NCBI RefSeq assembly: GCF_019175365.1
Contig: NZ_CP059572.1
Span: 4,402,001 to 4,466,000, forward strand
Direction of reading: 5' to 3'
DNA length: 64,000 nt
Source: Actinomadura graeca
GTDB taxonomy: Bacteria; Actinomycetota; Actinomycetes; Streptosporangiales; Streptosporangiaceae
Shown: one piece after another, positions 5,095 through 51,728 of the stretch
Layout of the letters: every line of letters starts with the position of its first letter
Position numbering within the stretch: the first letter of the stretch is position 1
Notes under the pieces: model-generated
The model's input: the letters and a program-made list of their open reading frames with translations, nothing else
Told to the model about the DNA's origin: nothing
Database searches by the model: none
Program-made: the position numbers and the translations under genes

Positions 5095-5168
5095 TGGAGC
5101 GGGTGACGGGAATCGAACCCGCGCTGTCAGCTTGGGAAGCTGAAGTTCTACCATTGAACTACACCCGC
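5095..5168 (-). tRNA. tRNA-Gly (anticodon CCC)
   Basis: On the minus strand the gene folds as a cloverleaf. The acceptor GCGGGTG pairs with CACCCGC, the anticodon stem TCAGC/GCTGA encloses loop TTCCCAA (anticodon CCC), and the T arm is CGGGTTCGATTCCCG. The CCA end is encoded (5095-5097). The 3' end faces the integrase gene, so this is the integration target of the AICE, whose insertion restores the tRNA 3' end. Confidence 0.95.
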
Positions 5169-49028: not shown

Positions 49029-50114
49029 TCAGAGCCAGCCGTTGCGGCGGAAGCCTCTGTAGAGGGAGAGGCAGGCGAGGGTGATGAAGCCGAGGATCAT
49101 GGGGTAGCCGTAGCGCCATTCGGTTTCGGGCATGAAGTCGAAGTTCATGCCGTAGACGCCGGCTATGGCGGTGGGGACCATGAAGAGGGCGCCCCAGGCG
49201 GAGATGCGGCGCATGTCCTGGTTGTCGGCGACGGTCACCTGGGTCATATGGGCCTGGAGGATGGGGTTGAGGAGCTCGTCGTAGGACTCGACCTGCTCGC
49301 GGACGCGAGTGAGGTGGTCTTCGACGTCGCGGAGGTATTCCTTGATCTCGGCGGGGACGAAGCGGCGGCCGGAGAGGTTGCGGAGGGGGCCGGCGAGGGG
49401 GCCGACGGCGCGCTTGAGCTGGATGACCTCACGCTTGAGGCGGTAGATGCGGCGGGACTCGTCGGTGCGCTCGGGGGAGAAGACGGCCTCCTCGACCTCG
49501 TCGATGTCCTCCTGGACGGCGTCGGCGACGCAGACGTAGCCGTCGACGACGCGGTCGGCGACGGCGTGCAGGACGGCGGCGGGGCCCTTCGCGAGGCGGG
49601 CGGGGTCGTCTTCGAGGCGTTCGCGGACGGAGCCGAGCTCGCCGTGGGCGCCGTGGCGGACGGTGACGACGAAGTCGGGGCCGCAGAAGATCATGATCTC
49701 GCCGGTCTCGACGACCTCGGAGCCGCCGGGGCCGCTGGCGACGTAGCCGACGGTCTTCATCACGACGAAGTGGACGTCGTCGTAGCGTTCGAGCTTGGGG
49801 CGCTGGTGGGCGTGGATGGCGTCCTCGACGGCGAGCGGGTGGAGGCCGAAGACCTCGGCCAGCTCGGTGAGCTCGGTCGCGGACGGCTCGTGCAGGCCGA
49901 CCCAGACGAACCCGGCGCTGTCGCCGTGGGGGGTGAGGCGGCCGTCGCGGATGAGGCGGACGGCGTCCTCGACGGTGGCCGTGGACGCGCGGTGGCCGTC
50001 GATGTAGGCGGCCCAGTCGATGACGGCGGAGTCGCGGCTCTGCACCGGCACGCCGGTGGGCCTTCCGCGCGTCTTGAACAACGCGCGGCTGGGGAGGACT
50101 CGTGTCATGGCCAT
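49029..50114 (-). CDS. corA: CorA-family magnesium/cobalt transporter
   Basis: The 361-residue protein has a large cytoplasmic domain, a long helix ('EYLRDVEDHLTRVREQVESY') and two C-terminal spans with the selectivity motif 'VYGMNFDFMPE' (GMN). It forms a pentameric Mg2+ channel. AGGAG lies six bases before the ATG. About 170 bases upstream on the same strand begins a proline-rich leader ORF with a near-perfect SD, which suggests translational or attenuation control by Mg2+ or proline supply, as for mgtL in enterobacteria. Confidence 0.92.
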   Translation of the reverse strand: MAMTRVLPSRALFKTRGRPTGVPVQSRDSAVIDWAAYIDGHRASTATVEDAVRLIRDGRLTPHGDSAGFVWVGLHEPSATELTELAEVFGLHPLAVEDAIHAHQRPKLERYDDVHFVVMKTVGYVASGPGGSEVVETGEIMIFCGPDFVVTVRHGAHGELGSVRERLEDDPARLAKGPAAVLHAVADRVVDGYVCVADAVQEDIDEVEEAVFSPERTDESRRIYRLKREVIQLKRAVGPLAGPLRNLSGRRFVPAEIKEYLRDVEDHLTRVREQVESYDELLNPILQAHMTQVTVADNQDMRRISAWGALFMVPTAIAGVYGMNFDFMPETEWRYGYPMILGFITLACLSLYRGFRRNGWL

Positions 50115-50167
50115 GAGGTGCTCCTAACCCTCCGGCCACACGCGTATCGCGCGCTCGACCCTGCCTG

Positions 50168-50284
50168 TCAGCGAAGGGAGCGCGCGGAGGTGATGGCCGG
50201 ACGCCAGATGGAGGCGGACGGATGGGCAGTCCTGCCCGGACTGTGAGGGTTCTCCGGCGAACTGCAAGGATCACCAGGACTCAT
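50168..50284 (-). CDS. Proline-rich leader ORF upstream of corA
   Basis: The 38-codon ORF begins at ATG 50284 and ends 53 bases before corA. Its SD (AAAGGAGGTGG) is among the closest matches to the 16S rRNA tail in the window. The peptide starts 'MSPGDPCSSPENPHSPGRT' and has 7 prolines in 38 residues. GGAGGTG of its SD can pair with CACCTCC near the ORF end (plus-strand coordinates 50186-50192), so ribosome movement could switch structures. It is likely a regulatory leader, not a protein with its own function. Confidence 0.6.
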   Translation of the reverse strand: MSPGDPCSSPENPHSPGRTAHPSASIWRPAITSARSLR

Positions 50285-50469
50285 CCCGACCACCTCCTTT
50301 CACGCTCCTCGACGGCGGGGTGTCAAGCCCGTCGCAGCCTATCAGCCGACATTTAAGACGCCGCCGTCATCGGGAAGGTTCACCGGTGACACGTGTGACG
50401 GCCGCCTCATCGTCACAGGGCGGTCCCGAATGGGCCTGGACGGCGTCCCCCGAGGGCTCGCGGGCGCAC
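50285..50469. other. Divergent control region between corA leader and purD
   Basis: No gene is seen. The AT-richer patch around 50340-50360 may hold the corA promoter. No M-box riboswitch could be recognised by eye. Confidence 0.4.
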
Positions 50470-50475
50470 TAAGCT
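50470..50475 (+). promoter_or_regulatory. -10 box TAAGCT of leaderless purD
   Basis: TAAGCT ends eight bases before GTG 50484. No SD is visible. Confidence 0.45.
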
Positions 50476-50483
50476 CGCGTGAC

Positions 50484-51728
50484 GTGCGAGTACTCCTCCT
50501 TGGTTCGGGTGGCCGCGAGCATGCGCTCGCCCGCGCCCTGCATCGCGACCCTGCCGTCACCGCCCTCCACTGCGCCCCGGGCAACCCGGGCACTGCCGAG
50601 ATCGCGGCGAACCACCAGCTCGATCCCACCGATCCGACGGCGGTGAGGGAGCTGGCCGGGCGGCTCGGGATCGAGCTGGTCGTGGTGGGGCCGGAGGCGG
50701 TGCTCGTGGAGGGGGTCGGCGACGCGGTCCGCGCGGCCGGGATCCCCTGCTTCGGGCCGGACCGGGCCGCGGCCCGCATCGAGGGGTCGAAGGCGTTCGC
50801 CAAGGAGGTCATGGCGGACGCGGGCGTCCCGACGGCCGAGGCGCGCGTGTGCGAGACGGCCTCGCAGGCGGAGGAGGCGCTGGACGCGTTCGGGCCGCCC
50901 TACGTCGTGAAGGACGACGGGCTGGCGGCGGGGAAGGGCGTCGTCGTCACCGATGACCGCGAGGCCGCGGCCGAGCACGCGGCCTCCTGCGAGCGGGTCG
51001 TCATCGAGGAGTTCCTGGACGGCCCCGAGGTGTCGCTGTTCGCGTTGTGCGACGGCCAGCACGCCGTCCCGCTGCTGCCCGCCCAGGACTTCAAGCGGGC
51101 CTACGACGGCGGCGAGGGGCCCAACACGGGCGGGATGGGCGCCTACACGCCGCTGCCGTGGGCGCCGCCGGGTCTCGTGGACGAGGCGATGTCCACCGTC
51201 GTGCAGCCCGTGGTCGACGAGCTGCGCCGCCGCGAGACCCCGTACGTCGGGGTGCTGTACGCGGGGCTGGCGCTGACGTCACGGGGCGTCCGGGTGATCG
51301 AGTTCAACGCCCGGTTCGGCGACCCGGAGGTGCAGGTCGTCCTGGACAGGCTCGCGACGCCCCTCGGGACGCTCCTCCAGTCCTGCGCGATCGGGGGGCT
51401 CGATCCGGCGTTCCGGCCGGAGTGGCGTCCGGGCGCCGCCGTCACCGTGGTCGTGGCCGCGGAGGGGTATCCGGCCGCGCCGGTGAAGGGCGATGAGATC
51501 ACGGGCCTCGACGAGGCGGACGCGGTGGAGGGCGCCTACGTGCTGCACGCGGGCACGGCGCGCGACGCGGAGGGGCGGCTCGTGTCAGGCGGGGGACGCG
51601 TCCTCGACGTGGTGGGCTCGGGCCCGGATCTGGCGGCCGCGCGCGCCGCCGCCTACGAGGCCGTCGCGAGGATCGGCCTGCGGGGTGCCCATCACCGCAC
51701 TGACATCGCGCTGGGCGCGACACCGTAA
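50484..51728 (+). CDS. purD: Phosphoribosylamine-glycine ligase
   Basis: The 414-residue ATP-grasp enzyme makes GAR from phosphoribosylamine and glycine. Signatures are 'VLLLGSGGREHALA', 'VVGPEAVLVEGVGDAVRAAG', 'PYVVKDDGLAAGKGVVV' and 'GPNTGGMGAYTPLP', and 'VIEFNARFGDPE' supplies metal ligands. The GTG start gives the standard N-terminus. Frame upstream of it is non-coding. purB follows after 52 bases. Confidence 0.97.
   Translation: MRVLLLGSGGREHALARALHRDPAVTALHCAPGNPGTAEIAANHQLDPTDPTAVRELAGRLGIELVVVGPEAVLVEGVGDAVRAAGIPCFGPDRAAARIEGSKAFAKEVMADAGVPTAEARVCETASQAEEALDAFGPPYVVKDDGLAAGKGVVVTDDREAAAEHAASCERVVIEEFLDGPEVSLFALCDGQHAVPLLPAQDFKRAYDGGEGPNTGGMGAYTPLPWAPPGLVDEAMSTVVQPVVDELRRRETPYVGVLYAGLALTSRGVRVIEFNARFGDPEVQVVLDRLATPLGTLLQSCAIGGLDPAFRPEWRPGAAVTVVVAAEGYPAAPVKGDEITGLDEADAVEGAYVLHAGTARDAEGRLVSGGGRVLDVVGSGPDLAAARAAAYEAVARIGLRGAHHRTDIALGATP

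Follow-up and report, generated by a model that had tools for sequence, protein, structure and literature searches.

Upstream ORFs (uORFs) that control magnesium uptake have been described in enterobacteria. In Escherichia coli and Salmonella, mgtL is a short ORF which precedes the Mg2+ transporter gene mgtA and corL one which precedes corA (available excerpts of PMC11282234 and PMC11552253). At low Mg2+, ribosomes drop off MgtL at an EPDP motif and mgtA is spared termination, according to the accessible text of PMC11282234. For the E. coli corA leader, the accessible sections of PMC11552253 describe a uORF whose Shine-Dalgarno sequence (SD) is sequestered by stem A, a participation of Rho, and an inverse relation between uORF and corA expression. 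Two further types of leader are known from actinobacteria. The uORF Rv1805A of Mycobacterium tuberculosis lies in a leader related to Mg2+, is under the control of an M-box aptamer and involves SD/anti-SD pairing as well as termination by Rho (excerpt of PMC12810186). Amino-acid attenuators such as that of ilvB combine a uORF with mutually exclusive antiterminator and terminator structures (excerpts of PMC13236596 and PMC11109978).

The leader analysed here lies in a window of 64,000 nucleotides from Actinomadura graeca (contig NZ_CP059572.1, positions 4,402,001 to 4,466,000); its features are collected in Table 1. Like mgtL and corL, it presents a short ORF, equipped with an SD of its own, before the gene of a Mg2+ transporter. 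The product of this gene matches PF01544 (E 3e-58) and carries the GMN motif, which places it in the CorA family, as in the corL system; the uORF SD may fall in a stem, as is reported for corL. No sequence relation to corL is claimed, and corL differs by its UUG start and the single proline of its conserved N-terminal region (excerpt of PMC11552253). The layout given in the initial annotation holds: a uORF of 38 codons, seven of them for proline, with a strong SD, ends 53 nt before corA on the same strand, which is the minus strand.

Our main reading is that this leader is an attenuator of corA operated by its ORF and working like enterobacterial mgtL and corL, with a probability of roughly 0.53. 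It looks like a ribosome-operated switch of Mg2+ uptake because a conserved ORF with rare codons stands before corA and its SD can be folded onto the ORF's own end. The computations show the conserved uORF with its frame, its rare codons and, in Streptomyces, the complementarity of the strands A' and B described below. Translation of the uORF, the direction of control and the signal are what we infer, Mg2+ being deduced solely from the identity of the gene.

Table 1. Features of the corA leader in the A. graeca window (positions in the window)
Feature	Positions	Strand	Basis
uORF, 38 codons, ATG start, peptide MSPGDPCSSPENPHSPGRTAHPSASIWRPAITSARSLR	50284-50168	minus	ORF list, alignment, frame test
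corA, 361 aa, CorA-like Mg2+ transporter with YGMNFDFMPE motif	50114-49029	minus	translation, Pfam
uORF SD AAAGGAGGTG, also 5' strand of candidate stem P1	50300-50291	minus	sequence
corA SD, AGGAG	50121-50125	minus	sequence and alignment
-10-like element TGATAGGCT, probable promoter by its pattern	50336-50344	minus	pattern TGRTANNST
Conserved uORF start, codons 1-9, rare codons AGT CCT GGT GAT CCT (TGC) AGT	50258-50284	minus	
A' strand CCGTCCGCCTCC, candidate P1 partner of the uORF SD	50221-50210	minus	folds, consensus folds, duplex test (modest), strand table
P2 outer 5' strand, CCGGCCA	50194-50200	minus	single-sequence folds, strand table
P2 inner 5' strand CGCGCGCTC	50178-50186	minus	alignment and consensus fold
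P2 inner 3' strand GAGCGCGCG	50148-50156	minus	alignment and consensus fold
P2 outer 3' strand, TGGCCGG, adjoining the corA SD	50132-50138	minus	folds, strand table
CACCTCC, SD partner named in the initial annotation, not conserved (1/46)	50192-50186	minus	

Unlike that of Rv1805A, the leader lies before corA, and no M-box was found: the covariance model (RF00380) found no match in the window at gathering score or in 49900-50500 at E ≤ 5, and none in the A. graeca genome, in a search which gave a match in 2 of 14 control genomes. No other Rfam element reached gathering score at the leader either. The sole Rfam match in the window at that score is a tRNA gene (5098-5168, minus strand). In 40 of 46 Actinomadura-group leaders, a TGRTANNST element lies 39-57 nt ahead of the uORF start. 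A sigma-70 scan found no consensus site and no -35 element, and a terminator scan confined to loops of 3-8 nt found none in the window, so a consensus promoter and terminator were both set aside. The model search of the A. graeca genome returned one strong leader copy (2.2e-12), the next match (E 0.011) being short and weak; a leader shared with other genes of this genome was dropped on that result. The genome holds a second corA (L265, G000:C1:523010-524060), 49% identical to the first; the filter used for the other-family loci below found no short ORF led by an SD before it.

The initial annotation had proposed to check the ORF in related genomes, and it is conserved there. A CorA scan was run on named genome contigs, and the best 80 loci of 579 relatives were used. 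An ORF led by an SD and coding for Gly-Asp at codons 4-5 stands shortly 5' of corA in 45/45 loci of Actinomadura, Thermomonospora and Actinoallomurus (L002-L046), counted with a pattern that did not ask for Gly-Asp. The Nonomuraea group (L047, L049, L052, L054, L063, L066, L067, L069, L070, L073, L074, L076-L081) has a homologous uORF before corA in 17/17 loci, mostly of 26-33 codons and mostly with an M[NSK]xGDP start; L067 starts with GTG. The other 18 loci are all from Streptomyces, with a uORF in eight, a diverged one in L055 and none in nine. Among 150 genomes of A. graeca's own family, 56 gave a leader DNA match at E ≤ 0.01; the strong matches cover the SD and first codons (50297-50258), and many of the weakest fall elsewhere in the query and are probably due to chance.

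A Streptomyces leader query matched 143 of 150 Streptomyces genomes at E ≤ 1e-6. The leaders were parsed with two patterns. The first parsed 91 of 114 loci, all 91 with a CorA homologue downstream, and overstated the frequency of Cys7 because it demanded this residue; on reading, 22 of the 23 missed loci proved to have the uORF, many with Gly7, and the remaining one, L055, has the diverged ORF VDLPSRPSGSS. The second pattern parsed 96 of 114 loci (94 distinct) and demands codons at positions 2 and 4, so that its counts at these two positions are not free. Frequencies at positions 2 and 4 are therefore taken from the first parse (89 distinct leaders), those at positions 5, 7 and 8 and for proline from the second. 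By eye, the peptide starts of the two lineages align without gaps, M-D-P-S-R-P-C-S-T in Streptomyces and M-S-P-G-D-P-C-S-S in Actinomadura.

The leader is the usual neighbour of corA in Streptomyces, Actinomadura, Nonomuraea and relatives. Of 33 corA loci taken from among the matches listed in eleven other families, 32 lack it upstream; the filter accepted SD-led ORFs of 6-45 codons up to about 700 nt away. The sole related ORF of this set, at L232 (family f8, G156), starts VTTSSSPCSTSRSP; this ORF, VTTSSSPCSTSRSPLRRVLPR, lies outside the two main families and has the CCGTGCAGTACCA block in common with them. A model built on the sequence of the 5' block alone gave matches in 44 of the 296 genomes searched in the class (E ≤ 0.01); the matches at E ≤ 1e-3 comprise 12 in family f1, 24 in f18 (Streptomyces) and one in f26.

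Midpoint rooting of a tree of 105 CorA rows leaves genes with the leader on both sides. Apart from L223 (f28), the rows without a leader form one well-supported clade, made up of 12 Streptomyces paralogues and sister to the Streptomyces corA genes that have it; the leader of L055 is diverged. The 12 paralogues have no leader within 1000 nt upstream, in a scan which recovered it in seven control loci (diverged in L055). The eight leader changes counted on the tree are too many, since five 'no leader' labels are false: L218, L224, L225 and L226, which are the same genes as rows with a leader, and L126. An old leader, lost with the paralogues, would be the economical reading of the midpoint-rooted tree. 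The loci support a strongly initiated short ORF, conserved with its frame before corA across two GTDB families.

The reading frame itself is conserved. In 37 of 38 scored Actinomadura-group loci, the distance from the ATG to an anchor falls in one codon phase, while the distance from the anchor to corA is spread over the three phases (14/12/12); the 38 are those of 46 loci which the anchor pattern matched, 8 being unmatched. Substitution rates are less telling. In 30 uORFs of equal length, pN/pS is 0.53 in codons 2-9, 0.65 in codons 10-24 and 0.96 in codons 25-38, which does not amount to a clean coding signature: in codons 2-9 the +1 frame scores lower (0.31) than the reading frame, and third positions are about as conserved as the others. 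Constraint on the peptide is weak.

Codon choice is the strongest translation-related signal. It would suit a stretch preserved so that decoding is slow, though an element read as RNA or DNA may also underlie it. At codons 2-6 and 8, rare synonymous codons predominate. GC3 at codons 2, 3, 4, 5, 6 and 8 is 0.07, 0, 0.28, 0, 0.15 and 0 over 46 Actinomadura-group uORFs, against 0.96 over the 46 corA genes and 0.708 at corA codons 2-10. In these corA genes AGT, CCT, GGT and GAT account for 0.9%, 1.5%, 4.5% and 2.1% of the codons in their respective synonymous sets. Codons 2-9 of the window uORF are rarer than those of any of 148 reference ORFs (mean log fraction -3.29, reference minimum -3.08); other uORFs of the family reach up to -2.23 and thus overlap with the rarest genes. 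In Streptomyces leaders, codon 2 is GAT or GAC, hence Asp, in 88/89 distinct leaders and codon 4 is AGT in 85/89 (first parse); CGA occupies codon 5 in 82/94 and AGT codon 8 in 93/94 (second parse). At codon 7, Gly (GGC or GGT) replaces Cys in 15/94 leaders, the adjoining AGT being fixed. NNU and CGA codons are read by wobble.

These counts divide the initial annotation's proposal of a proline-rich sensor of the mgtL type. An acidic residue, usually accompanied by proline, is indeed found in the first six codons, and all 66 uORFs of Actinomadura/Nonomuraea type have proline in their first eight residues, in a set chosen by a pattern demanding Gly-Asp. The general claim fares worse: proline as the common denominator across the clades is doubtful because 22 of 94 Streptomyces uORFs have none in the first eight residues; AGT at codon 8, by comparison, is kept almost without exception in the 94.

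Folding gives a plausible means of coupling the uORF to its own SD. In the minimum free energy (MFE) fold of the window leader, the uORF SD, conserved as GGAGGTGG in the alignments, pairs with CCGTCCGCCTCC to form P1. A GC-rich stem, P2, follows, with the uORF stop codon in its loop and its 3' end beside the corA SD. The whole 245-nt leader folds with z -2.37, and 3 of 200 shuffles do equally well. The SD had been proposed to pair with CACCTCC near the end of the ORF; pairing with the ORF's own end is possible with CCGTCCGCCTCC as the partner, but CACCTCC, complementary in the window, occurs in only 1 of 46 Actinomadura-group uORFs and was dropped as the partner. In single-sequence folds of relatives, the corresponding partner is GACCACCTC in Actinoallomurus and GACCACTCCAAT in Nonomuraea. 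P1 is present in the Nonomuraea-group consensus fold (14 sequences); that of the Actinomadura group (31 sequences) retains the core pairs of the SD, gives the bases 3' of the SD other partners and puts the P2 outer strand CCGGCCA on the corA start. Across the 66 uORFs selected for Gly-Asp, the duplex of SD and uORF is stronger than in codon-order shuffles (mean z -1.85; 37/66 at p ≤ 0.05) and less clearly so than in synonymous draws (mean z -0.91; 8/66 at p ≤ 0.05). Double changes are scarce (5/34 and 4/47 consensus pairs in the two group folds), and one clear case of compensation, CCGGTC/GACCGG in L041, concerns the outer strand of P2. A P1 stem which sequesters the uORF SD is hence plausible rather than proven, given the modest result against both controls and the partly different consensus fold.

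One RNA structure explaining the conserved 5' block was rejected as the clades pair it differently, by CUGG:CCAG in Nonomuraea and with other partners in Actinomadura. Several strands near corA could take part in alternative pairings. The corA start ATGGCC (50109-50114) is kept in most aligned Actinomadura-group loci and is complementary both to CCGGCCA in the uORF and to TGGCCGG before the corA SD, two strands that can also pair with each other; a three-strand translational switch made of these elements is conceivable. In L070, L073 and L076-L080, GATTGAGGTGAC is conserved in the P2 loop between uORF and corA and resembles, by eye, the region of the uORF SD, GATTGGAGGTGG; in the Nonomuraea group, it might compete for A'. 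The excess of C over G in the window leader, taken over its best 80 nt, stands at the 99.4th percentile of the window, which suggests that Rho may act on the C-rich Actinomadura leader.

The clearest candidate mechanism is offered by Streptomyces. There, the A' strand CGCTCTTCC forms codons 11-13 and is complementary both to the SD region and to a downstream strand B, GGAAGAGC; no B-like strand could be established for Actinomadura. With the looser patterns of the second parse, A' and B are both found in 92 of 94 distinct leaders; under stricter scoring, the start of B and the first base of the stop codon are 16-119 nt apart in 84 of the 89 distinct leaders that the first parse gave, in a region of otherwise highly variable sequence. 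The best helix between A' and downstream sequence surpasses shuffles at p ≤ 0.05 in 49/89 leaders and at p ≤ 0.01 in 17/89, with 40/89 missing the 0.05 level; the SD:A' helix alone reaches p ≤ 0.05 in 11/89. The A':B core pairs are nearly invariant and so attest to complementarity more than to covariation. At flanking positions +7 (80% paired) and -3 (14% paired), pairing is above that of all 500 permutations; at several other flanking positions it is not. The 25 nt after B are T-rich (T fraction 0.359, against 0.20 in the leader). When the stretch between SD and B is folded (MFE), A' pairs on the SD side in 51/92, on the B side in 33/92 and on neither in 8/92, which might represent two rival structures. 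These parts have the appearance of an attenuator with mutually exclusive antiterminator and terminator. The terminator scan, limited to loops of 3-8 nt, reported none in the Streptomyces locus L057. In one group of Streptomyces, which includes L057, L072, L112 and L146, a further conserved block like GCCTGTCTGTAGCGAACGCCGTCATCGCG follows the T-rich stretch before corA.

If the main reading is correct, the leader would work as follows. A ribosome would start the uORF co-transcriptionally from its very strong SD and then meet the run of rare codons, which encodes an acidic residue and usually prolines. A ribosome which reaches the stop codon would leave the SD:A' pairing (P1) broken behind it, and corA expression would be cut off. 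In Streptomyces, this shut-off would come about because the freed A' can pair with GGAAGAGC, forming a hairpin followed by a T-rich stretch, which is terminator-like. If the ribosome failed early, by drop-off or stalling, as low Mg2+ reportedly brings about on MgtL, P1 would re-form or A' would stay covered, no terminator would arise and corA would be transcribed; failed translation of the uORF would turn corA on. Actinomadura and Nonomuraea retain the uORF and a pairing like P1, but their output step would differ; candidates are Rho, which might act on the C-rich uORF, and control of translation by way of P2 beside the corA SD.

This scheme resembles mgtL in an early acidic residue, usually with prolines (EPDP in mgtL, SPGDP or DPSRP in the actinomycete uORFs), and in the expectation that efficient leader translation switches the gene off (excerpts of PMC11282234 and PMC11552253). 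The differences are the transporter class, the lineage, the run of rare codons, the Streptomyces uORFs whose first eight residues are free of proline and, in Streptomyces, a candidate intrinsic terminator in place of Rho. The Streptomyces layout would give the same sign of control as in mgtL and corL, exerted through an intrinsic-type hairpin. A speculative refinement, which we hold to be distinctly unlikely, places the sensor in codon decoding itself. Rare wobble-read codons (NNU in Actinomadura and Nonomuraea; GAU, CGA and AGU in Streptomyces) beside an acidic residue would make early elongation depend on Mg2+ and drive the SD:A' / A':B switch that sets corA in most Streptomyces. The leader would then gauge free Mg2+ at the decoding centre and not via polyproline stalling.

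Other explanations of the conserved ORF were weighed against the attenuator. An attenuator of amino-acid biosynthesis, the layout of which is shared with the ilvB type, was rejected: by eye, the uORF peptides contain no run of codons for a regulated amino acid or a single amino-acid family, and the gene is a transporter gene, not a biosynthesis operon. A translated leader might instead report a general slowing of ribosomes, through antibiotics, starvation or the charging of rare tRNAs, and not Mg2+. The start of the uORF, with rare codons of different amino acids, would suit such a device, and a mycobacterial whiB7 uORF responds to a translation inhibitor, according to the excerpt of PMC13236596. 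We nevertheless regard it as unlikely in view of the downstream gene, which is CorA in 91/91 leaders of the first Streptomyces parse, and of the paralogous Streptomyces corA clade that has no leader.

It is quite unlikely, in our view, that what is conserved is an aptamer or operator, an element of RNA or DNA which merely resembles an ORF, with T-rich codons kept for base pairing or protein binding. The evenly conserved third positions of codons 2-9, the weak pN/pS and the lower value of the +1 frame there are what such an element would give; against it, the SD, start and codon phase are kept (37 of 38 scored loci) while downstream spacing drifts, the 5' block pairs differently in two clades, and no Rfam family is found at gathering score. 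We give little credence to a uORF without a sensing function, whose only effect would be to raise corA translation by delivering ribosomes or by reinitiation. The strong uORF SD would serve this purpose, and leader genes that raise expression through reinitiation have been proposed for actinobacteria, but the distances from leader to gene in that proposal are short and peak at 10-11 nt (excerpt of PMC4833913). Here, the stop codon lies 45-88 nt from corA in the 38 scored Actinomadura-group loci, and corA homology starts 259-480 nt after the uORF SD in 91 Streptomyces leaders; moreover, boosting explains neither P1 nor A':B. The attenuator accordingly remains our preferred reading.

No description of an actinomycete corA leader ORF appeared among the matches listed in the open-access literature, which misses most subscription papers, and no Rfam family represents this leader. 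If the attenuator reading is true, ribosome-operated control of Mg2+ uptake would reach beyond enterobacteria and include Streptomyces and relatives, where its marks would be conserved rare codons and, for Streptomyces itself, a candidate intrinsic terminator. The leader, matched in nearly all Streptomyces genomes searched, would then provide a tractable system for learning how ribosomes measure Mg2+, be it by the nascent chain, by proline or by codon decoding.
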